Positions 1-10,784 of a DNA stretch of 64,000 bases are shown here, piece after piece. The DNA comes from Terriglobus tenax. GTDB taxonomy: Bacteria; Acidobacteriota; Terriglobia; Terriglobales; Acidobacteriaceae. Position numbers and translations under genes: made by a program. How positions within the stretch are numbered: position 1 is the stretch's first letter; each line of letters opens with the position of its first letter. The notes under the pieces were generated by a model. It worked only from the letters and a program-made list of their open reading frames with translations. It had not been told where the DNA came from and ran no database searches. The DNA is taken from contig NZ_JAGSYA010000003.1 of assembly GCF_025685395.1 (NCBI RefSeq), forward strand, positions 1,116,001 through 1,180,000, in the 5' to 3' direction.

Positions 1-151
1 CTTCGTTGTCAGCATCATCCGAATGAAGAATTTGACGTATTGAGCTCGCTTGGAGCGAGCCGGCCTCAGCATTGTCTCTGACAAATTTCAGCCGAAGAAG
101 ATATTGGCTCCATGGCAGAGCTCCAACCGTCAATGAAACACTACTCGTCAT
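1..151 (-). CDS. Partial unrecognised protein, runs off left edge
   Basis: On the minus strand an ATG opens a reading frame that stays open for about 50 codons to the window edge. The first residues are MTSSVSLTVGALPWSQY. It follows the 183-aa gene in the same direction with a gap of about 90 bases, so it could be the next gene of that unit. I do not recognise it and see no strong ribosome binding site. A chance frame of this length is possible. Confidence 0.3.
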   Translation of the reverse strand, partial: MTSSVSLTVGALPWSQYLLRLKFVRDNAEAGSLQASSIRQILHSDDADNE

Positions 152-244
152 CAAGTAGATATCTATAGCGGCTGAGTTGAGGCGGTGTTCTTCATTGATG
201 GGCACCACCGGGCGATTATACCTTTCGCAAGGATGCTACGAGGA

Positions 245-796
245 TTAGTCTTCGGGCGGCTGCGGTACTTCGAGGATGCGACAGTCCGTCCATCGTTTGA
301 TGGGGACCAGTTCACCACGTACTTCGACATTGTGTCTTCGGGCGCGAAGTCTGTTCGCAACTGGTCCAGCGTGCATGTCTCCAACGAGCACGAGCACATC
401 GCCGTCGACATCCTCCTCAGTTAAGATTTGCTCCACAAAGTACTCTTCACGGACTTCATCTTCTGGAATCCGTTCCTCGATCGTGTACTCCATGTTGTCG
501 TCTGGACGGCTAGGCCGATTCCTCAGAGCGTCGTATATCCCAGCCGCCTTCCGCTCGTCCTCCGTCATGCAGATGTTATGCCAAGGAACCTTAGGATCAT
601 GCGCCCGCGCCAGTTCTGCAGCAATTGATTCCTTGGTAAAAGAACATTCTTCGAAGATCGCTCCGACAGATTCTTTGGCAAACTCGGCTTCGAGTATCGC
701 GCGAAGCTGGGCCTTAGATGTCTGGAGGTCTTCCGTATCAGCAGGGTCTTCGAGTAGTTGAAGCGCATGAGTGATGGAGAGAACGATGATCTTCAT
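245..796 (-). CDS. Hypothetical acidic protein, 183 aa
   Basis: I do not recognise the family. The protein is strongly acidic, with a Glu/Asp-rich middle, and has no signal peptide or membrane segment. A central hydrophobic stretch followed by Gly-Asp-Met-His-Ala-Gly (DVLVLVGDMHAG) looks like a beta strand and turn of an alpha/beta fold. It lies divergent from the nuclease/TPR/PIN gene with about 330 bases between them, so it may belong to the same accessory segment, but nothing in it shows a function. Codon use looks coding along its full length and the ATG is the only sensible start. Confidence 0.6.
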   Translation of the reverse strand: MKIIVLSITHALQLLEDPADTEDLQTSKAQLRAILEAEFAKESVGAIFEECSFTKESIAAELARAHDPKVPWHNICMTEDERKAAGIYDALRNRPSRPDDNMEYTIEERIPEDEVREEYFVEQILTEEDVDGDVLVLVGDMHAGPVANRLRARRHNVEVRGELVPIKRWTDCRILEVPQPPED

Positions 797-1123
797 TGTG
801 TCTGGACTTCCGTACAGCGCTCGGACTCATTCGATCTGAACGCAAAGCGGGATCGAGATTACTTTGTAGCGCTATTCAGCGCTTCAACATCGCTGACTTC
901 GTGTGACCTCGTTCATGATGTGTTGCTGCCCGGCCACTTCGTCAAGAGCGGCCAGAAGCAGTTCACACTTGAGCGAAGTCCTAAAGCCCTCGCTATTGCG
1001 GCTCACCAGCGTTCCATACCCTTTCAGGACGAATTTCCTCAGATCCCAATCCCGCAACCCGGCTGCTGCTGGCAGCGATGGATTACTTGCGTTCCATGCG
1101 GAATCGTGCCAAGATACTACTCC
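797..1123. other. Intergenic region between divergent genes
   Basis: This stretch of about 330 bases separates the 183-aa gene from the large conflict-type gene. The frame of the large gene stays open through it, but the translation (rich in Ser, Cys and Pro, no family resemblance) does not look like protein, and the PadR-like domain begins only after the ATG at 1124. It should hold the promoters of both genes. I could not pick a convincing -35/-10 pair. Confidence 0.5.
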
Positions 1124-4100
1124 ATGGGTACTACTTCACAAGTAGTAAATAATTATGGTCAGAATTTAGGGCATTTTTCGGATACGCCGCTCCTGGTTCT
1201 GGCATGTCTCGAATCCGGACCTATGCACGGCCATTCCATGCTCCGCGTCATCGAGTCCACGTACCGTACCCGGTTAGGGCCAGGAGGCCTCTATGGGGCG
1301 ATCTCGCGTCTTGAGGCCAAAGGTCTTATCGCACCACTTCCGATGGAGGACCGACGCCGCCCGTACCAGATCACTCAGGACGGTCTTCGACTGCTCCGCG
1401 CTCAGTTGGACACCATGAGCCGGCTGACCAGCCGCGGCTCTACACCCGACCAGCCCCTGCCGATGCCGAGCTTTTACATGCCGGAGTCAGACGAGGACGT
1501 CTTCTCCGAGATGGAGCAGCGGCCGGCTGACAAGCCCACGCCGTTCAACAAAGATCAGCTTCCGTTCCTCCAGCTCGGCGGTCGCGGGTTTGAGATCCTC
1601 ACGTACCTTCTGAAACAGGCTGAGGAACCGAAAGGGGCGGTGCTGACGCTGGTCAAAGCGTCACGGGATGCTGGCAGGGATGTACTGATTCATATCGGTG
1701 GGAAGCTTCGGGTCGTCGTCCAGTGCAAGAACCTCGATAACCGGTTCTCCCAACCCTCTCTCCTCGAAGAGTTGGTCAAGTTCGTTCTCTACGACTATAC
1801 AGAGCGCTATATTCCCGAGGACGGGATTATTACGTACGAGTTCTGGGTTCCTGGCGGTCTGACTGATCAGGCGGACCGGTGGCTTGCCGAATTCCCGAAT
1901 TCGCTTACAGATGAGGAGTTGCAGAAGGCATTCGACCGCGTCGTATCGGCCAATAAGACCTTGAGCACCTTGGAGTGGGCCGAGGTCGGCGCCTACCTGA
2001 AGGCTACGCTTACGCAGCGGATTCGCCTCGATCGGCACGAAAGTGTATCCCTCACCAGAAAGGTGAAGTCAGGGCCGGACGGGCTCTATGAAGACTTTTT
2101 TCAGATTACGGTACAGGCTTCGCTCAGCCAGGTCACCGATGTGCTCGGTGCGCAGTTTCGAGCTCAAAGTGACCAGCTTATCGCCCAGCTTACGGATGTC
2201 TTTCGCGGGCCTCAGATTGACGAGAGAATCAACGAGGCCCGGGATCTGGTCAACAAGCGGGAGTTCCGCGACGCCTCTTTCGTGCTTCGGCAGGAGGAGT
2301 CGAAAAACGGACATCTCTTCAACGATCGTCAGCGGTTCAGGCTTGCCTCCAACTACGGGGCCATAGCCTTCGGCGAGAACCGCATGGAGGACGCGGCGCG
2401 CCACTTCTTGGAGGCGGTTGGCTATGCTCCTGAAGACGAGCTTGCACAGATCAATGAAGTCTTTGGCTACTTTCTGCAGGGCGACCGGGATCGAGCGTAT
2501 GAGCTGGGAACTCAGCTACGTCTGCGCTACCCGAAATCCGCTCGGCTTGCCGGGATTTGGATCAACAGTGCCCCGGCCACGCAGACCCCGGATCAACTCA
2601 GCTCGCAGCTGGACGTTGCTTTGCTTGAAGACGCTGAGGTCTGCATAGCGCTGGCCCGCCGCTGCATGATGGCCGATCAGTTGGATAAGGCCGATGAATA
2701 TTGCACGAGTGCCATCCTTTCGAACGCGAAGTGGTCGCAGTCATGGCTGGTCCGTGCACAGGTTGGCGTAGGCATGCTGATGGAGGAAGCCGCGGGCCTC
2801 CGAACCTTAAATGCTCCCAGGGAGACGATCCTCTCGAATGCCATCGAAGACGCTACCAAAGGGATTGAAATTTGCACGAGCGAAAACGAAGGAGTATGGC
2901 CGAAGGCGGAGGGTTACGCTCTAAGGGCTCAACTGCGCTTCATCAACGACGAACGCGATCTCGGGATTCAGGATGCTGAGGCCGCTTATAGGCTGACTCC
3001 TGATGTGCTGCACGTCATTCTGTTGAGGGCACAAGCGCATCTGATGGCTGGCGAAGTCGACAGTGCCATTAAGCTGTTGGCTCAAGGTTATGCGCAGGAA
3101 GCTCGCCCGGACATCGTACTCCTCTACGCGAAGACGTTGGGCGGCCGGGCGAAGGACGGCGACTTGGCTCGCGCGGTTGAAGTGTCCGCCGCGATCGATG
3201 TGTCAACCATTCCAGCGCGAATGCGGGACTCCTTCGTCATCAACGCAACGCAATTCATGGCTCAGATCGAAGCGTGGGATACAGCTGGCATATATCTCGA
3301 GCGGCAGCGCGCTGCAATCCATCCTGCCACGGCGTCTGCAGTTGAGGGACTTATCCATCTCGGCCGCCAGGACCGCGATGCCGCAAACCGTTACGCCGAT
3401 GAGGCATTAGCCCGACTCTCTGACGAAGTGCAGGCAGGGACGAAGGAGTTTCTTGCTGGGCTGCTGATGCAGCTCAAGAGGGCAGAGGAAGCACTACCCA
3501 TCTTCCAAGAGCTGTTCGACAGTAACATCCCCACCTTCGATGCCCGCCAACTCGTCGCATGTGCGGATGAACTGCGCTTGCACAAGAAGGTTCTCGATAT
3601 CTGCGAACAGCTGAATCAGAGGAGGCCGCCGGATTGGCAGATGCTGGAGTTCGAGGTCCAGCATCTGGAGCTGTACAACCGGGACAAAGCGATTGAACGG
3701 CTTCAGGAATTTCTGCAGCGTCACCCTAACCACAAGATGGCTCAACTACGGCTGTCGATCACAGCACTGCTTCACGGGAGGCGGGACCTGGTGCGCACAT
3801 CGGTCGCCGAGCTTCCTCCAGTAGAAGAACTACCCGCCCGCTACATTATGGCTGCGCTGGGGCTCCTCCGCGAGGGGCCGAGTTATCAGGATGCAATCGA
3901 CTATGCCTATCGCTACCTTCGTTGCCATTTCGACCGGCAGGAGGCACACGAGGCTTTCATTCAGGTCGTCATCATGCGTCCGCATGAGCCCGGTGAGACT
4001 GCCGAGATCGACGTTGTGGGAATGGACGCTGCGGTCCACTGCCAGGAGATGGGAAGCGGCGAGTTCCGCTGGTTCGTCTTGGAGAACACCGACAAGCCGG

Positions 4101-5494
4101 TCAGAGACTTCGAAGAGATTGCTCTGGGCGACCCCCGCGCAATCGACCTGATCGGCAAGAAGGTCGGCGACACGTTCGTACTCGCTGCAGCTCCAATGGG
4201 CAACCGTGAAGCGATCATCCGGAAGATCCAGACGAAGTACGTTCGCCGGTTCCAGGATTGCATGACAGAGCTGCAGATTCGATTCGGTCCGAAGACGATG
4301 TTGCAATCGGTCTATGTCGGTCCACCTGATGCCATCGATCAGCCGGCCATGGTCACGATGATGACGGACCTGCAAGAGCGGGCAAAGAAGCTCGAAAAAG
4401 TTCAGGAGCTTTACGCAGCTAACCCGGTCTCTCTTCACATCTACGGTGCTAGCTTCGGCCACAATGCCTACGAGGCCCTCATCCATGTGGCCCAGACGCC
4501 TACACTGCCGGTGAAGTGCTTCGAGGGCAACCTTGGCGAACCTGATGCCAGCCTTCGGTTTCTGCGCGAAAGACCGCTAGTCCTCATCGATCTCACAGCT
4601 ATTGCCACCATTCGCCTTCTGCGGCTCGAGTGGCTCTTTACGACGAAGCTCTATCGCTTCGCCATCACTCAGAGGACCTGGGAAGAGCTTCACGATACCT
4701 TGCTCGACGAGCATAACCGTTCTGGTAAACGGGCCAGCATGCGGTATGAGAACTCTCAATACCAAGTGATCGAGCACGATCCGGAAGCCGTCGAGCAGTT
4801 GCGGCTTGAGAACGAGGCATTCCTCGACAGCTTCCGCCAGCATGTCCAGATCGTCTCCGCTGTTGAACTTGCAGCAGTCCCACCGGCTGAACGCGACCAG
4901 ATGAAGGATTGCTTCGGTGTTTACGGTTCGGAGACCATGGCGGTCTCAGGGAAGGAGCAGACTGTCCTCTGGTGCGACGACTCAACGCTCGGCATCCTGG
5001 CTTCCTCGCAGTTTGGGGCGCGGCGGACATGGACCCAGATCATGTTGCTTTCCTTCGTTGAAGCAGGTCTCCTTTCACGCGAGGACTACAACAAAGCTGT
5101 AGCCCGGCTCATTGGCTGCAACTATAAGCTCACGTTCTTCGACTCTGCGAGCTTGTTGGAAGCCTGCAGGCTTTCCGACTATGGCGCCGCGCGGTTTCCA
5201 CTGAAGCAATCGATCGAAGTCTTCCGCGACATCGCGATGCCCAACGATGTATTAGTTCGGCTATTCCTGGAGTTCTTTGTCGGCCTGCAGCGTGAGCCTC
5301 TGCTGTTTCAAAAGAAGAGCCTGATCATTCGTGCACTCCTCGACGCACTATGGGCCAACCCTGCGTCTCACAACCTTGTCGGCGCATTGCGTCAGATGAG
5401 CCCGCGGCTGTTTGGGTTGAATGTAGTTGCCGAAGCTGAGTTCAACGCGATGTTCGACGAGTGGATGCGCTCTCTCAATCGCGATGCCATCTAG
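1124..5494 (+). CDS. PadR-HTH / Mrr-like nuclease / TPR / GreAB-C-like / PIN-like protein, 1456 aa
   Basis: Multidomain cytoplasmic protein, probably a biological-conflict effector. Residues ~18-98 match the PadR-type winged helix (LVLACLESGPMHGH, then LGPGGLYGAISRLEAKGLI). Residues ~147-255 have an Mrr-like PD-(D/E)XK core: GRGFE, then GRDVLI, then QCKN at 200-203. Residues ~365-950 are helical TPR-like repeats. Residues ~957-1040 resemble the GreA/GreB C-terminal domain (DLIGKKVGDTF). From ~1151 a PIN-like domain has an acidic strand end (LIDLTA, D1156) and a DD pair at 1285-1286. I recall TPR-GreAB-C-PIN as a predicted conflict-system architecture; the N-terminal PadR and nuclease parts are an addition or variant. 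The ATG at 1124 was chosen because the PadR domain starts just after it. The next gene follows by 15 bases. Domain calls are by eye. Confidence 0.8.
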   Translation: MGTTSQVVNNYGQNLGHFSDTPLLVLACLESGPMHGHSMLRVIESTYRTRLGPGGLYGAISRLEAKGLIAPLPMEDRRRPYQITQDGLRLLRAQLDTMSRLTSRGSTPDQPLPMPSFYMPESDEDVFSEMEQRPADKPTPFNKDQLPFLQLGGRGFEILTYLLKQAEEPKGAVLTLVKASRDAGRDVLIHIGGKLRVVVQCKNLDNRFSQPSLLEELVKFVLYDYTERYIPEDGIITYEFWVPGGLTDQADRWLAEFPNSLTDEELQKAFDRVVSANKTLSTLEWAEVGAYLKATLTQRIRLDRHESVSLTRKVKSGPDGLYEDFFQITVQASLSQVTDVLGAQFRAQSDQLIAQLTDVFRGPQIDERINEARDLVNKREFRDASFVLRQEESKNGHLFNDRQRFRLASNYGAIAFGENRMEDAARHFLEAVGYAPEDELAQINEVFGYFLQGDRDRAYELGTQLRLRYPKSARLAGIWINSAPATQTPDQLSSQLDVALLEDAEVCIALARRCMMADQLDKADEYCTSAILSNAKWSQSWLVRAQVGVGMLMEEAAGLRTLNAPRETILSNAIEDATKGIEICTSENEGVWPKAEGYALRAQLRFINDERDLGIQDAEAAYRLTPDVLHVILLRAQAHLMAGEVDSAIKLLAQGYAQEARPDIVLLYAKTLGGRAKDGDLARAVEVSAAIDVSTIPARMRDSFVINATQFMAQIEAWDTAGIYLERQRAAIHPATASAVEGLIHLGRQDRDAANRYADEALARLSDEVQAGTKEFLAGLLMQLKRAEEALPIFQELFDSNIPTFDARQLVACADELRLHKKVLDICEQLNQRRPPDWQMLEFEVQHLELYNRDKAIERLQEFLQRHPNHKMAQLRLSITALLHGRRDLVRTSVAELPPVEELPARYIMAALGLLREGPSYQDAIDYAYRYLRCHFDRQEAHEAFIQVVIMRPHEPGETAEIDVVGMDAAVHCQEMGSGEFRWFVLENTDKPVRDFEEIALGDPRAIDLIGKKVGDTFVLAAAPMGNREAIIRKIQTKYVRRFQDCMTELQIRFGPKTMLQSVYVGPPDAIDQPAMVTMMTDLQERAKKLEKVQELYAANPVSLHIYGASFGHNAYEALIHVAQTPTLPVKCFEGNLGEPDASLRFLRERPLVLIDLTAIATIRLLRLEWLFTTKLYRFAITQRTWEELHDTLLDEHNRSGKRASMRYENSQYQVIEHDPEAVEQLRLENEAFLDSFRQHVQIVSAVELAAVPPAERDQMKDCFGVYGSETMAVSGKEQTVLWCDDSTLGILASSQFGARRTWTQIMLLSFVEAGLLSREDYNKAVARLIGCNYKLTFFDSASLLEACRLSDYGAARFPLKQSIEVFRDIAMPNDVLVRLFLEFFVGLQREPLLFQKKSLIIRALLDALWANPASHNLVGALRQMSPRLFGLNVVAEAEFNAMFDEWMRSLNRDAI
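1129..1147. promoter_or_regulatory. Perfect 8-bp inverted repeat at the start codon (possible PadR operator)
   Basis: TACTACTT-CAC-AAGTAGTA is a perfect inverted repeat with a 3-base spacer, beginning three bases after the chosen ATG. PadR-family regulators commonly bind AT-rich palindromes with TACT/AGTA arms, and the encoded protein starts with a PadR-like domain. Self-repression through this site is therefore a reasonable inference, but no binding is shown. Confidence 0.5.
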
Positions 5495-5509
5495 CGACTG
5501 AAAACACTT

Positions 5510-7450
5510 ATGTCGACCAGCGAGACCAAACCGATGGAACTTCGAGCCCGGATTGAGCGGGCACTGATACCCATGGTGCAGGAGCTGCGCTTGATCTTGG
5601 CGAAGTACCCCACGGTCGTGGTTTTGAACTACTACCTGGCAAAGGCACATGCCATTCGGCTCGGTGAAATCGAGCAGCCCGATGGCTTTTGGCCAAAGGT
5701 CCGATATCTCTGGGCGAACCTGCTGGCTCTGCCATGGAAGCCATACGATGGCGTCGACCCTGACACTCTCGACTTCGATGAGATCGACGAGAAAATTGAA
5801 GTCATCTTTGATCTCTATCGGGTCGGAGCAATCTACCATCCCGGCAAGATTCCGGGGTCCCGGAGAGAGTTCATAGCCCGCATGGGATGGGCAATCCGCG
5901 TGCGAGAACCTGACGCGCTTGCGTTTCCAGAGCAGATCAAGAACTGGGCAATGACCAAGTTAGCGCCCTTTGATGGCTCGTTCCTGAGTCCTCAGTTTGG
6001 CAACGGTGCATCGGACATCTTTTCATGGGTCACCTCTCTGATTGAGACGGTTAGCGATCGTTCCGGGCAGGCGATCAGCGAGGGCTACAAGATACGGCAA
6101 GAGCTCGGGCTACTCCGCGACCGTTATGTTCAAGATCCTTCGAGCCTGGCTTCTATCAAAGAAGATGCTGAGAAGCTGCACCTTGAGCAACGTTTGATTG
6201 AGAACACCAATGATCTGGCTCATCTTCACATCTTCACTCGCGATGAACTCACGAAGGGATTGTCTCCGGAATCAGAGAAGCTGATCGATCTCCTGGCGGT
6301 TGAACCAGGAGGTGTGTCGGCTGAGTACAGGTTCCCCCACGATGAGAATCCGTTGGAGTTCAAATCTCTGATCGCACTCCCGGACGGGTCGTATTCTTTC
6401 CTGGATCCTGCCAACGCATACCGGCTAGTTGGAAAGGCATTAGAGCGGAATATTCTCGCAACCGACTCAATGCGAGATCGCTACCTGAAGAAGCGAGACA
6501 AGCTCACGGAGGCATTCGTCGCCGCCCGGCTCAGAGAGATATTCCCGGATGCTGAGATTCATCAGAACTATTACGTCGAAAGGGGACAACTGGAGAAAGA
6601 CATCCTCGTCCGGCACGGTGACACTGTCTTTCTGGTTGAGTGCAAGAACAGTCGAGTCCGCGCGTTTGCTGGCGGTGGTGATGACCTCCTCAAGTATGAA
6701 AATGACTTCGAGAAGTCCGTGCAGTACGCATACGATCAGGCGCTCGATGTGAAGGGGCGGGTTAATAGTTGCGATGAAACGGTCTTCTTCGATCAGAAGG
6801 GCCGGGAGGCCTTCCGGTTACGCCGATCAGAAGTTCGACGCTTCTTCATCATCTGCATTGCGATTACCCCTCGTAGCGAGTATGGTACCGACCTCTCTTA
6901 TCAACTACAGAAGACATCGCAAGAGCCGTATCCGATATCGATCAATCTCTTCGATTTCGAGACGATCGCGAAGTATTTGAAGACTCCGGGCCAGTTCCTC
7001 GGCTATCTGGCTGCTCGAGAGCCAATCCACGGCAAGGTGTCGACGGGCGATGAGCTGAACTTTGCAGGTTACTTCTTCAAGTACGGGAATCTCGACTTCC
7101 CGGACGGGATGTGGGTTGACGATATCTACTCTTCTGTATTCGATCGCCAGTGGTATGCAGAGAAGGGCATCCACATAGAGGAGCCCACCGGCGGTCCAGT
7201 CATCACCACTGTTGAGCGCAAGGGCAACACCATCGTCGTGTCGGACCCCAAGGGAAAGCACGAGATCACGGTGTCACCTCATATCAGAGAGTTTGTCGCG
7301 CGTTCCCGCGGTGTTCCGATGACTGGAGCTGATCGCAATCGCCCCTGCGCGTGCGCAAGTGGGAAGAAAGCTAAACATTGTTGTGGGCTAGTCAAAGCAG
7401 AGCGACGAGGTGACGTAAGACATACAACGATCTTCTGGGGAGAGATGTAA
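5510..7450 (+). CDS. PD-(D/E)XK nuclease-domain protein with C-terminal SEC-C motif, 646 aa
   Basis: Probable nuclease partner of the upstream gene. Residues ~340-400 hold a PD-(D/E)XK pattern: a Glu-bearing helix (EAFVAARLREIF), D364 in EKDILV, then E377-x-K379 in FLVECKN. The C-terminus (~609-625) carries a SEC-C zinc-binding motif, CACASGKKAKHCCG, seen as an add-on in SecA and in many nucleases. The N-terminal half is helical and unrecognised. There is no signal peptide or membrane segment. It starts 15 bases after the large gene with no promoter between them, so the two are almost certainly co-transcribed and probably co-function. MELRARIERAL a few codons downstream is an alternative start. 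Confidence 0.8.
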   Translation: MSTSETKPMELRARIERALIPMVQELRLILAKYPTVVVLNYYLAKAHAIRLGEIEQPDGFWPKVRYLWANLLALPWKPYDGVDPDTLDFDEIDEKIEVIFDLYRVGAIYHPGKIPGSRREFIARMGWAIRVREPDALAFPEQIKNWAMTKLAPFDGSFLSPQFGNGASDIFSWVTSLIETVSDRSGQAISEGYKIRQELGLLRDRYVQDPSSLASIKEDAEKLHLEQRLIENTNDLAHLHIFTRDELTKGLSPESEKLIDLLAVEPGGVSAEYRFPHDENPLEFKSLIALPDGSYSFLDPANAYRLVGKALERNILATDSMRDRYLKKRDKLTEAFVAARLREIFPDAEIHQNYYVERGQLEKDILVRHGDTVFLVECKNSRVRAFAGGGDDLLKYENDFEKSVQYAYDQALDVKGRVNSCDETVFFDQKGREAFRLRRSEVRRFFIICIAITPRSEYGTDLSYQLQKTSQEPYPISINLFDFETIAKYLKTPGQFLGYLAAREPIHGKVSTGDELNFAGYFFKYGNLDFPDGMWVDDIYSSVFDRQWYAEKGIHIEEPTGGPVITTVERKGNTIVVSDPKGKHEITVSPHIREFVARSRGVPMTGADRNRPCACASGKKAKHCCGLVKAERRGDVRHTTIFWGEM

Positions 7451-7458
7451 GCGGAAAG

Positions 7459-7477
7459 GCTGACCCGTTAGGTCAGC
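7459..7477. terminator. Hairpin after the nuclease operon
   Basis: GCTGACC-CGTTA-GGTCAGC is a perfect 7-bp stem between the convergent nuclease and antitoxin genes. There is no U-tract on either side, so termination is only a guess. Confidence 0.35.
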
Positions 7478-7499
7478 GTCCAAAGTTTCGAATGAGTAT

Positions 7500-7814
7500 T
7501 CAGCGCTTTGCAGCTAACGCAGGTTGATTGGACTCGAAGCTGATGCGCAGACGCGAGCGAGTTGCACGAGCGAACCGCTCCAAAGTCCGCGTGGACGGCA
7601 ACACCTTGCCGCTTTCAAGCCTCGCAACAACAGCCTGCGTTGTCCCCATGGCAGCCGCAACTTCTTCCTGGGTCATATCGGCCTTACTCCGTGCTTCGAT
7701 CAATGCGGAGGCAAGGGCAAACTCATTCTCCAGTGCGTCGTATGCGGCTACATACGATGGATCTTTCTTCCACTCTCGAAATGACTCTTCTGCCGGAATC
7801 AACTTACGCTTCAT
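7500..7814 (-). CDS. higA: HigA-type antitoxin, XRE-family HTH, 104 aa
   Basis: Antitoxin and probable autorepressor of the toxin encoded just upstream in the same transcript. Residues ~35-90 form a Cro/C1-type helix-turn-helix (ADMTQEEVAAAMGTTQAVVARLESG), and the N-terminal part has the usual length for HigA2-like antitoxins. Its ATG overlaps the toxin stop codon by 4 bases (ATGA), which suggests translational coupling. Toxin first, antitoxin second is the HigBA order. The gene is convergent with the nuclease operon, so it is a separate unit beside it. Confidence 0.85.
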   Translation of the reverse strand: MKRKLIPAEESFREWKKDPSYVAAYDALENEFALASALIEARSKADMTQEEVAAAMGTTQAVVARLESGKVLPSTRTLERFARATRSRLRISFESNQPALAAKR

Positions 7815-8143
7815 TCGACCTCCTTTGCCCGTCTCAAGGCTAGCTCCAGTTCACGCCGAGGTGTTTTCTGTGTCTTCTTCACGAAGACATGCACCACCAC
7901 GATTCGCTTCCCAACCGCAGTGACATAGCAGGCACGTGCGATGCCGCTCTTGCCCTTCATTCGCATCTCCCACAACGGGCCTTCGAGATGCTTCACGTAT
8001 GGCTCTCGAACCCGCTCCAGCCCGTGTGCCTGAATCAACTCCACGATCCGCTGAAAGTTTGCCCGGATGTCCAAGGGAAGGGCATCGAGAGATGCTTTCA
8101 CTCCAGCATCCAAGAACTCAATCAACCAGTTCGCCATAGCCAT
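7811..8143 (-). CDS. higB: HigB-type toxin, Gp49/RelE superfamily, 110 aa
   Basis: Predicted ribosome-dependent mRNA interferase of the phage-derived Gp49-like family. The family pattern is visible: WLIEFLDAGVKASLDALP, a central helix (FQRIVELIQAHGLE), VKHLEGPLWEMRMKGKSGIARACYV, and the C-terminal VVVHVFVKKTQKTP strand-helix with the basic residues typical of these toxins. Length is normal. Two ATGs two codons apart (8143 and 8137) are possible starts; an AAAGG lies before both. It is translationally coupled to the antitoxin. Confidence 0.85.
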   Translation of the reverse strand: MAMANWLIEFLDAGVKASLDALPLDIRANFQRIVELIQAHGLERVREPYVKHLEGPLWEMRMKGKSGIARACYVTAVGKRIVVVHVFVKKTQKTPRRELELALRRAKEVE

Positions 8144-8177: not shown

Positions 8178-8513
8178 TCACTCCTTGTAGGCAGCAATTG
8201 CAACAGCGGCAATCGGACTGGCCGAGGTCGAGTCGAAACCGTTGACTACGCGTCCCCGACGCTCGGTTGGCGAGAAGTCCTTGTCGTAACGAAGCCCCAT
8301 ATTCAGGGTCAGGTCAGGACGAATACGCCAGTCATCCTGTGCGAAGAACGACAAATAATGCTGGCGGGCTACATAACTGCTGTTCAGATCATAGGTCGCA
8401 GTCGTAGGCAATCCGAGCAGCATATAGCCTCTAAAAAATTGGTATTGCTGTTGATGAGTGACACGTATCCAACTACGGGCCGAATCCTGCCGAGTAGGAA
8501 ATTTCGTCGGCAA
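8178..8513 (-). pseudogene. Relic of a TonB-dependent receptor
   Basis: About 85 residues match the lateral part of an Acidobacteriota TonB-dependent receptor: a LLGLPTTA segment, then [25 protein letters not shown], the same signature seen in the complete receptors of this window (AQDTWQVTPRLTLDYGVRF). No signal peptide, plug or rest of the barrel is present in any frame nearby. It is an internal fragment of a gene about ten times longer, probably cut down when the toxin-antitoxin/nuclease segment was acquired or by deletion. Confidence 0.75.
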
Positions 8514-8564: not shown

Positions 8565-10784
8565 CTAATGTGCCGGAAGAATGGTGGGTTGAAGCTCGAA
8601 ATGGAGCTCGCCGCCGGCCAGAAGCTCGTCGTGGAAGACGTAGGTCCGCCCCAGCGGCTTCCCGTTCAGGCTGACGGACTTCACCTGGTACCGGCCAGAG
8701 GATGCTCCGGGAGCCGTAATCCGCAGCGTGTGCCCATTGGGCAGGTGCAGCGAGAGCTCATCAAACAGCGGGCTGGCCAATTCATACCGCGGAGTGCCGG
8801 GAGTGACCGGATAGAAGCCGAGCGACGAAAAGACATACCAGGCCGACATCTGGCCGGCATCATCGTTGCCTGCCAGGCCGTCGGTAGAGTTGCGGTATTC
8901 CTTCTGGAGAATCTGCCGGACACGGAGCTGGGTCTTTTCGGGTGCCCCGGCAAAGTTATAGAGATAGGCGATATGGTGGCCGGGTTCGTTGCCGTGGTTG
9001 TAGAAGCCTCCATCGAACAATGCATCCAGCTTGGAGATAAACTTCTGCTTCCCGCCCAGATACTCCACCAGGCCCGGCAGATCCTGCGGAGCGAAGAAGG
9101 TGTACTGGCTGGGAAGACCTTCGGTGATCCACTTGTAGGTTCCGTTGGGGTCAAAAGGCGTCTCCCAGCTTCCATCGGCATGTCGGCCGCGAGCGTAACC
9201 TGCTTCAGAGTCAATCACTTTCCGGTAATTCTGAGCGCGATCCGCAAAGAGTTTGACGTCCTCTTTATGACCGGTCCACTTGGCCATCTCGCTTACCAGG
9301 AAGTCGTCGTAGGCGTATTCCAATGTGCGGGAGACCTGCTCGTCCGTATGGAAGGCATCGGAGATGTGATCTTCCAGGGGGATGTATCCATACTTGAGGT
9401 ACGAATTCAATCCGCGGCGGCCGCGGCCATCCAGGTACGCAGCGTGGTCTTTGGGACGTTCCGTGGCATTCTTCCGCATCAGACGATAGGCCGACTGCAC
9501 ATCAAAGCTACGGATGCCCTTGGCATATGCATCCGCGATCACCGCGTCCGCATGGTCTCCCACCATCTCCGAAGTGTAACTGTTCCAGGCCGGAAAAATG
9601 GGCAGATATCCACCTTGCTCACCCTTTGTAATCAGCGACTTGACCATGTCCAGGGAGCGGTTTGGGGCAACCAGGGTGAATAGCGGCTGGATCGCCCGGA
9701 AGGTATCCCAGATGGAAAAGTCGTCGTAATAGGTAAAGCCCTTTGCCGTCTTTACTGTCGTGCCGCCGGCGAACTGGGGATAGCTTCCGCTGCGGTCGCT
9801 GAAGATGCGCGGAAGCTGGAAGGAGTGATAGAGCGCCGTGTAGAAAACCGTTCTTTTTGAATCACTTGCGGACTTCGCCGAAAGATCGAACGGATGCAGC
9901 GCCTGCTCCCATGCCGCGCGCGTTTTCTGCACCGTGCCTGCAAAATTCCAATCCGGAATCTCTGCCAAATTCCTGCGGGCTTCCTCAACACTGGTGAAGG
10001 ATGTTCCGATGCGGACGAGAACTTCGGAGCCCTGAGTTAAATCGAAGGAAACAAAGGCGCCTGCCGCGCTCTTCGCGCCATCCTGGCTGACGCTGCCGAT
10101 ATGGCGCTCGTCTCCGCTCCACGTACCGCCGGTCTTGAATGGTTGGCTGAACTGGACGACAAAATATCCGGAGAAGCCAGCCGGCTTTCCATTGCCGGCA
10201 TAGATACGGTAAGCCGGGTTCCATCCCGTAACTTCCTGATTCTTCTCGTCAACCCGAATGCTTCCTGTCCCAAGACGATGATTCTCCTGAATGGCCAATA
10301 CGGCAGCTTTTACCGAAGCAGGATAGCGAAAACGCATCAGGCCGCTACGCTCGGTGCCCGTCAGGTCCACATGGATACCACTTTCCAGCAGATCAACGGA
10401 GTATTCGTAGGGATGGCTCTGTTCCTTCTCGTGGGAAAAGCTCGAGGAGCGCCCTGCGGGATCCAGTTTCTCCGCGGAGAGAAGCGGCATGATGGTGACG
10501 CTTCCGTAGTCCTGCGTGCACGACCCGGTAAGAAAATGGCTGCCGCGGAACCCCTGAATACGCGTATCAGCCGCGTAATAGGGAGCGATGCATTTGGTTT
10601 CGCCGTCCCGCGTCTGCGGTGTCCACTGCGTCATGCCAAAGGGCATGCCGGCGGCGGGGTAGGTCTGCCCATCACCCGCAGTTCCAATGAGCGGGTTGAC
10701 CAGATCGACCGGTGCCGATTGGGAGAGTGCGCTGAAGGGGACAGTCAGGATTCCGGCGAGCAGAAAAATGCGGGTCGATGTCAT
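8565..10784 (-). CDS. GH92 alpha-mannosidase, secreted, 739 aa
   Basis: Exported glycoside hydrolase family 92 enzyme, a family of Ca-dependent exo-alpha-mannosidases acting on N-glycan or mannan branches. The start ATG gives a clean signal peptide (MTSTRIFLLAGILTVPFSALSQSA). Next come the family's N-terminal hallmark VNPLIGT and GMPFGMTQWTP. The (alpha/alpha)6 barrel has YDDFSIWDTFRA, and further on GNDDAGQMSAWYVFSSLGFYP, a strongly conserved GH92 block with the catalytic-region acidic residues. Length is normal for the family. A longer frame upstream exists but belongs to a gene relic. It lies alone between relics, so its partners are not evident. Confidence 0.92.
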   Translation of the reverse strand: MTSTRIFLLAGILTVPFSALSQSAPVDLVNPLIGTAGDGQTYPAAGMPFGMTQWTPQTRDGETKCIAPYYAADTRIQGFRGSHFLTGSCTQDYGSVTIMPLLSAEKLDPAGRSSSFSHEKEQSHPYEYSVDLLESGIHVDLTGTERSGLMRFRYPASVKAAVLAIQENHRLGTGSIRVDEKNQEVTGWNPAYRIYAGNGKPAGFSGYFVVQFSQPFKTGGTWSGDERHIGSVSQDGAKSAAGAFVSFDLTQGSEVLVRIGTSFTSVEEARRNLAEIPDWNFAGTVQKTRAAWEQALHPFDLSAKSASDSKRTVFYTALYHSFQLPRIFSDRSGSYPQFAGGTTVKTAKGFTYYDDFSIWDTFRAIQPLFTLVAPNRSLDMVKSLITKGEQGGYLPIFPAWNSYTSEMVGDHADAVIADAYAKGIRSFDVQSAYRLMRKNATERPKDHAAYLDGRGRRGLNSYLKYGYIPLEDHISDAFHTDEQVSRTLEYAYDDFLVSEMAKWTGHKEDVKLFADRAQNYRKVIDSEAGYARGRHADGSWETPFDPNGTYKWITEGLPSQYTFFAPQDLPGLVEYLGGKQKFISKLDALFDGGFYNHGNEPGHHIAYLYNFAGAPEKTQLRVRQILQKEYRNSTDGLAGNDDAGQMSAWYVFSSLGFYPVTPGTPRYELASPLFDELSLHLPNGHTLRITAPGASSGRYQVKSVSLNGKPLGRTYVFHDELLAGGELHFELQPTILPAH

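Follow-up and report, generated by a model that had tools for sequence, protein, structure and literature searches.

How is a protein that seems to combine a DNA-cutting and an RNA-cutting part kept quiet in its own cell? The question is raised by a locus of Terriglobus tenax (host genome 4.36 Mb), where, within the 64-kb stretch of DNA analysed here (the window), a gene for a giant predicted conflict protein, gene 1, is followed at once by a gene for a second predicted nuclease, gene 2. Gene 1 very probably belongs to the TPR-GreA/B-C-PIN conflict proteins. For the locus as a whole we lean towards an account in which such a protein would have acquired a PadR regulator with its tandem operator, would carry a PD-(D/E)XK nuclease ahead of the core and would act in defence. 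The two genes are as follows (aa, amino acids).

1124..5494, plus strand: gene 1, 1456 aa, with PadR, Mrr-like nuclease, TPR, GreA/B-C and PIN in that order
5510..7450, plus strand: gene 2, 646 aa, PD-(D/E)XK nuclease with a C-terminal SEC-C

Both genes are intact and lie on the same strand with 15 bases between them; a preliminary description, made from the sequence alone, had their coordinates, lengths and spacing right. It had also read the domains of gene 1 in the order given above, which is borne out by Pfam (scans of both genes, matches listed up to E 1), by the relatives and by a model of aa 930-1456. Although the frame of gene 1 stays open as far upstream as a TTG at 758, we favour the ATG at 1124 as its start because the alignment with the stand-alone PadR relatives L120, L121, L122 and L125 begins at residue 1 of the gene 1 head, and because in L120 the distance from the ATG to the shared S-D codon is the same as in gene 1.

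The PadR head and its predicted operator

The first domain of gene 1 and the palindromes that we read as its operator lie together at the start of the gene.

1196..1399, plus strand: PadR winged helix, aa 25-92 (Pfam PF03551, 32.5 bits, cut-off 27)
1115..1133, plus strand: predicted operator copy 1, TACTACTCCATGGGTACTA, across the ATG, with 2 mismatches to TASTACNTNNNANGTASTA and 4 to the relatives' consensus
1129..1147, plus strand: predicted operator copy 2, TACTACTTCACAAGTAGTA, with perfect 8-bp inverted-repeat arms, within codons 2-8

The relatives' operator consensus, TASTACGTNNNACGTASTA, was drawn from the 8 nearest loci (L005-L012) of a first set of PadR relatives; its loosened form, TASTACNTNNNANGTASTA, has two positions opened to N where the window differs. 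With at most one mismatch, TASTACGTNNNACGTASTA occurs near the start codon in six of these eight (the exceptions are L009 and L011), and the more distant genes of the first set (L013-L031) have other palindromes, for example of a TATATCG type, or none. A second set comprised the best 29 of 45 non-window acidobacterial matches and 5 plasmid loci of 23 matching records. With up to three mismatches, TASTACGTNNNACGTASTA was found there in 24 of the 29 acidobacterial relatives (21 of 26 fresh ones, as three of the loci repeat the first set and helped to draw the consensus) and in 3 of the 5 from actinobacterial plasmids, often in the same tandem register. L120, L121 and L125 have two overlapping copies at -45 and -31 from head residue 13, which are the places of 1115-1133 and 1129-1147 in the window.

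When the window was searched with TASTACGTNNNACGTASTA at up to three mismatches, the sole match was 1129-1147, with two mismatches (0.06 expected; 6 of 100 shuffles matched), and with TASTACNTNNNANGTASTA at up to two mismatches only the tandem sites 1115-1133 and 1129-1147 were returned (0.05 expected). Across the 4.36-Mb genome, TASTACNTNNNANGTASTA at up to one mismatch matched 1129-1147 only, and the reversed-pattern control matched nothing. Operator and head both differ from those of the relatives: the half-site change is symmetric, from CGT/ACG in the relatives to CTT/AAG in the window, and in the head the putative recognition helix has G at position 55, where all 42 other rows (39 distinct loci) carry T or S.

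The stand-alone acidobacterial and actinobacterial PadR regulators of the second set are 43-62% identical to the matched part of the head and share its operator, often in the same register. Those inspected are short open reading frames, with another gene next in L075, L076 and L080, whereas the PadR domain of gene 1 heads a 1456-aa protein. Both marks of a PadR regulator are thus present, a winged helix and, by sequence, a palindromic operator at its own gene. Because the tandem operator of the stand-alone relatives is kept in the same register over the start codon, as a unique site, we read the head as probably a dedicated autorepressor of the two-gene unit. This is most naturally read as the capture of a PadR gene along with its operator, after which head and operator would have changed together.

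A parallel for a PadR domain joined to an enzyme comes from seven Streptomyces plasmid records, which annotate the PadR match as a methyltransferase-domain protein. On one of them, a plasmid of Streptomyces sp. NBC_00053 (L152, 1492-2529), PadR starts a methyltransferase-domain gene, and upstream of it lie operator-like palindromes at 3 and 4 mismatches.

The TPR, GreA/B-C and PIN core

Behind the N-terminal parts of gene 1 lies the constant core of the family.

2348..3733, plus strand: TPR array (Pfam TPR families), matches within aa 409-870, which may reach further
4001..4258, plus strand: GreA/B C-terminal-like domain, about aa 960-1045 (relatives' Pfam matches, PDB profile, Foldseek)
4586..5002, plus strand: PIN domain, aa 1155-1293, with D1156, E1188, D1285 and D1286 (PF20698, alignment, Foldseek)

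Pfam detects the two ends of this core well above threshold, TPR_19 with 37.7 bits (cut-off 25) and PF20698 (PIN-TPR-GreABC) with 68.8 bits (cut-off 27.8). GreA_GreB is absent from gene 1's own scan; it appears below the cut-off at the aligned place in L068 and L069, two of the seven family members scanned, and a core alignment of gene 1 with seven family members supports the GreA/B-C part. Searched against PDB sequences up to E 1, the family profile returned only GreA (E 0.18) and GreB (E 0.53). An AlphaFold2 model of aa 930-1456 has a mean predicted local distance difference test score (pLDDT) of 82. Its ten best PDB matches by Foldseek are GreA, GreB or Gfh1 structures and one RNA-polymerase-interacting protein, 3bmb, which we take to be Rnk; PIN domains (2fe1, presumably a PIN domain itself, and SMG6/EST1A) are among ranks 11-19. 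The best of these matches has E 1.7e-3 at a probability of 1.00, so that none reaches 0.001. By the model's top matches, GreA/B-C precedes PIN, as in the family, and the structure prediction that the preliminary description had asked for recovers both folds, in its favour.

The four putative catalytic residues of the PIN domain, D1156, E1188, D1285 and D1286, are assigned from the general PIN fold, and gene 1 keeps all of them. D1286 does not vary among the eight aligned sequences; L102 has E in place of D1285, and L103 has E in place of D1156.

The nuclease module of gene 1

1559..2146, plus strand: Mrr/LmuA-like PD-(D/E)XK nuclease module, aa 146-341, with E157, D186 and Q200-x-K202 (called from sequence)

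Pfam finds Mrr_cat at aa 154-212 with 16.5 bits, under the cut-off of 21; with that reservation, the module stands where the family has its variable N-terminal effector, here one of the restriction endonuclease (REase) kind. The E. coli protein WP_000723924 (488 aa) has this module and none of gene 1's other domains. It aligns with aa 146-341 at a pairwise E of 4e-17, was the sole record matched in the plasmid collection (E 3e-10), and has in common with gene 1 the residues E157, D186, Q200 and K202 (FE, GRD, QCK). Of 5426 complete E. coli genomes, 30 contain a match to it, and in 29 the match covers at least 80% of its length; it adjoins phage tail genes in the two records inspected, and identical copies are found in two IMG/VR contigs. 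The nuclease region is also weakly matched in two other acidobacterial proteins, in G246 and G205, of which the former (L082) looks by eye like REase-TIR-NACHT-FGS. Since it recurs in the E. coli protein and in other acidobacterial proteins, the module thus appears to behave as an exchangeable effector.

Gene 2, a SEC-C nuclease

6458..6847, plus strand: gene 2 nuclease core, Can2/NERD-like, with E334, E362, D364 and E377-x-K379
7334..7387, plus strand: SEC-C zinc motif, aa 609-626 (Pfam 17.8 bits, cut-off 20.4)

Gene 2 had been described as a nuclease, by D364 and E377-x-K379, that ends in SEC-C, and this stands: in an alignment with seven diverse relatives E362, D364 and K379 are invariant and position 377 is E or Q. 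NERD reaches 21.6 bits in Pfam, just under its cut-off of 22.1. A PDB search with the gene 2 family profile gave Can2 (7bdv) at E 2.8e-4 and, as a weak match, a DUF1887 protein (8bao) at 0.098; two further matches at 0.33, both sulfatase chains, are probably noise. The core thus resembles those of Can2/Card1-like and NERD nucleases, but gene 2 has the SEC-C C-terminus, and no CARF family, the mark of Can2/Card1, was found in its Pfam scan. The PADLOC matches to Csx1 and CARF_PDDEXK span residues 327-446 only, which is the nuclease part.

Besides the host's own genome, true relatives of gene 2 were found in three of 297 phylum genomes (L034, L035, L036), and the other 21 matching phylum genomes matched only residues 571-643, the SEC-C part. 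Gene 2 is also matched by 32 plasmid records, 19 of them from Agrobacterium. Two viral-contig matches (L156, L157) were dropped, as they lie within unrelated long frames around a DFDEIDEK stretch. A viral origin of either gene was rejected: the alignment search of viral contigs gave no relative of gene 1, phage records gave none of the nuclease module and none of gene 2, and the E. coli nuclease homologue alone is present in two viral contigs.

Relatives of gene 1 and the closest known systems

The TPR-GreA/B-C-PIN core is a predicted conflict system (Kaur et al. 2021, eLife 10:e70394, PMC8195603; Pfam PF20698) with the same parts in the same order as gene 1. According to section 7 of that paper, TPR-GreA/B-C-PIN is constant and 13 alternative effectors, REase and HNH included, replace EAD10; the genes are mostly stand-alone. 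The preliminary description had named TPR-GreAB-C-PIN as a predicted conflict architecture, and this core with a DNase-like N-terminal part matches PMC8195603. Its claim of novelty holds in part. A core headed by a REase was already described there in 2021, while the main text does not contain the word PadR at all (figure source data could list PadR heads). As far as the main text shows, then, the new element is the PadR and nuclease double head with its own operator, which goes unmentioned there, and the known one is the core with swappable effectors, DNases included. An ECF-type helix-turn-helix (HTH; ECF, extracytoplasmic function) is noted in a passage of that paper on another conflict protein, TRADD-N, so that parts of transcription factors have a precedent in proteins of this kind. 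In the literature, covered mostly at title and abstract level and with few subscription journals, we recognised no account of a PadR head on this core or of the gene pair. Two validated PIN-domain defence systems, DS-3 and DS-5, are reported in PMC13092281, and nothing in the available portion of that article equates them with this architecture; in the available portion of PMC12839542, GreA, PadR and SEC-C are not present as whole words.

With the host's own genome counted in both, PF20698 matched in 7 of 299 class genomes (6 over the cut-off) and in 13 of 396 phylum genomes (12 over). Gene 1 alone gave no relatives in the genome-collection search and its alignment gave seven loci, three of which were earlier places (Granulicella sp. 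S190, L068, L069); the host belongs to the same taxonomic family as Granulicella sp. S190 (G103). Within the genus, the search for gene 1 covered 8 of the 18 other genomes (all but G648-G657), and these had PadR-domain matches only or none. Besides the window, we count 16 family loci (L068, L069, L070, L071, L072, L073, L099, L101, L102 and L104-L110), among which L107 and L108 look near-identical, L102 has about 330 bases downstream, L101 and L110 are partial and L070 is broken; five weak PF20698 matches (G432/L074, G039, G191, G619, G235) were left out. L070 (G556, 8871-10107) is a remnant split across separate reading frames. Directly before L069 (G483, 1-7900) lie large helicase and methylase-like genes, DISARM-type-like by eye.

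The heads of these loci vary, in the pattern of section 7 of PMC8195603. L071, L099 and L102 have REase-like heads by motif (by eye), L109 has HNH_2 below the cut-off and L106 a DUF676 hydrolase. The head of L068 is HTH_3 (46.7 bits), an XRE-type repressor domain, followed by a REase-like stretch and the same core. This gene (L068 8135-12909, minus strand) overlaps by 4 bases a DUF4160 gene ahead of it, and a predicted antitoxin is apparently fused here to a nuclease-TPR-GreA/B-C-PIN protein. By eye, the L068 operon has a 12-bp palindrome close to its start, which is a lead only.

One branch (L072, L106-L109) has HNH-like or hydrolase heads and a constant second gene. It corresponds to the Double-PIN/Permuted_GreAB-C two-gene variant (PF24407, PF24388), in which a giant gene with the PF20698 PIN is directly followed by a gene of 642-675 aa; Permuted_GreAB-C is found in L106 and, below the cut-off, in L109, and L072, L107 and L108 were placed here by eye, from their gene order and the start of the sequence. 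The T. tenax genes differ from it: in the Pfam scans gene 1 lacks PF24407, and gene 2, a nuclease, lacks PF24388.

Genomic neighbourhood

L117 6652-17433, on the same contig shortly before window position 1: Shango genes SngA, B, C next to the Olokun genes OloA, B, preceded by ArdC-like and ParB-like genes
L117 17585-18208 (207 aa) and window 245-796 (183 aa), both minus strand: two genes, unmatched in Pfam and PADLOC, that separate Olokun from gene 1
7500-8143, minus strand: HTH_3 antitoxin-like and Gp49/HigB-like toxin pair, HigBA-like, convergent with gene 2 and self-complete

PADLOC scores the upstream genes at 880 (SngC), 599 (SngB), 229 (SngA), 263 (OloA) and 621 bits (OloB); we take Sng and Olo to stand for Shango and Olokun, and the ParB-like gene was assigned by eye. 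The end of OloB lies 1.7 kb from gene 1, with Shango beyond Olokun. Together with genes 1 and 2 these systems form a predicted defence island, and the defence role proposed earlier is likely in view of Shango and Olokun upstream and the HigBA-like pair downstream. A search for a separate small antitoxin gene showed that genes 1 and 2 leave no room for one. Ahead of gene 1 lie just the 183-aa gene on the opposite strand and some small frames without support, of which the longest on the same strand in 797-1145, of 80 aa, runs into the start of gene 1. A short reading frame (8178-8513, minus strand) resembles, by eye, part of a TonB-dependent outer-membrane receptor and may be a scar that marks the island's right edge. 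Of the proteins flanking the island, the left one has a match at E 1e-40 in two of the 18 other genomes of the genus; the right one is part of a large family of paralogues.

Proposed working and alternative readings

In the account that we lean towards, the PadR head, to judge from its conserved operator, would bind over the start codon and keep the two-gene unit nearly silent. When repression fails, or in the few molecules that are present, the GreA/B-C domain might dock on RNA polymerase and the PIN domain cut transcripts, as their families suggest; the N-terminal nuclease would cut DNA, and the nuclease of gene 2 may be a locally recruited helper acting on DNA as well. Invaders could thereby be warded off, directly or by abortive defence, a role to which the neighbouring defence systems point.

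Several observations weigh against this account. The fusion is a single case, a PadR head being found in none of nine other family members by Pfam, with the remainder judged by eye only. The N-terminal structure model, made from two sequences, is poor (pLDDT 43), so the PadR and nuclease calls rest on sequence; its Foldseek matches to PadR-type structures, which reach a probability of 0.99 although E stays above 0.09, are a hint only. Within three mismatches, the operator TASTACGTNNNACGTASTA is absent from L009 and L011, two of the first eight relatives, and from 7 of the 34 in the second set (L140, L144, L145, L146, L147, L149, L153). Both tests with TASTACNTNNNANGTASTA depend partly on the window, as the N positions were opened to fit it, and a narrower, window-derived pattern matched one place, but its reversed control matched too. 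A sigma-70-like promoter was looked for upstream of gene 1 and none was found. In the PIN domain, E1188 is A in L101, L102 and L103 (3 of 8 aligned). Finally, gene 2 is not a conserved partner of the gene 1 core.

The head could instead be a sensor of infection or of a small molecule, an allosteric switch of the nuclease and the PIN domain, with the operator a relic of the captured gene. Some PadR proteins, such as LmrR, bind ligands at their dimer interface, which counts for this possibility. So does the fact that the N-terminal parts of the core named in PMC8195603 are enzymes or adaptors, not repressors. A relic should hardly look as this operator does, undecayed, with perfect 8-bp arms, a symmetric change, the tandem register kept and the sole genome match to the loosened consensus at up to one mismatch; moreover, the Pfam scan shows no ligand-binding domain in the 40-50 residues between PadR domain and nuclease. 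We therefore consider a sensor head somewhat unlikely. The preliminary description had called the head a sensor, for which we found no positive evidence; what there is points to a repressor retaining its own operator. Another conceivable role, tethering the nuclease to specific DNA so that invaders with similar palindromes are targeted, would fit a DNA-binding head that precedes a nuclease and a genome of its own that holds one close match only. That match, however, is gene 1's own start, which would be self-cut, and invaders with such sites were not sought; we regard tethering as highly improbable.

Gene 2 had been viewed as one half of an obligate two-protein system in fixed pairing with gene 1. 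The two lie on the same strand 15 bases apart and are both nuclease-like, and the Double-PIN branch does have its second gene in all five loci inspected. Gene 2, though, lacks a Permuted_GreAB-C match, and its profile (gene 2 and seven relatives) found no relative in the fetched flanks of any of the 16 other family loci; nor does any of seven gene 2 neighbourhoods contain a gene 1 relative, four of them on plasmids (by annotation) and three chromosomal (L084-L086, by search). An obligate pair is thus unlikely. The preliminary description had itself proposed to drop the pairing if the two genes were never neighbours in homologues, and in those inspected they never are. Because neither the 16 family loci nor the seven gene 2 neighbourhoods show the partner, the pairing is local. 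The family is described as mostly stand-alone, with few conserved neighbours; the fetched flanks of the 16 other loci lack a relative of gene 2, but here a second gene stands 15 bases away.

Significance

How the potentially lethal nucleases of this family are kept quiet has apparently only been guessed at so far, and a captured repressor with its operator would be one concrete, testable answer: autorepression built into the effector. The changed half-site and the changed helix residue may also be a small case of a specificity switch. We advance more tentatively, and with considerable doubt, the idea of a recurrent, undescribed design, in which nuclease-TPR-GreA/B-C-PIN proteins have captured DNA-binding autorepressors as their heads (PadR here, together with the operator, and XRE antitoxin-like in L068) and perceive infection as the loss of self-repression at their own promoter; both the class and the sensing by derepression rest on these two cases, the window and L068. 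A search for PadR or XRE heads with palindromes over start codons offers a route to further ones. If the account is true, one polypeptide would be a weapon, its own repressor and an RNA-polymerase-docking factor.

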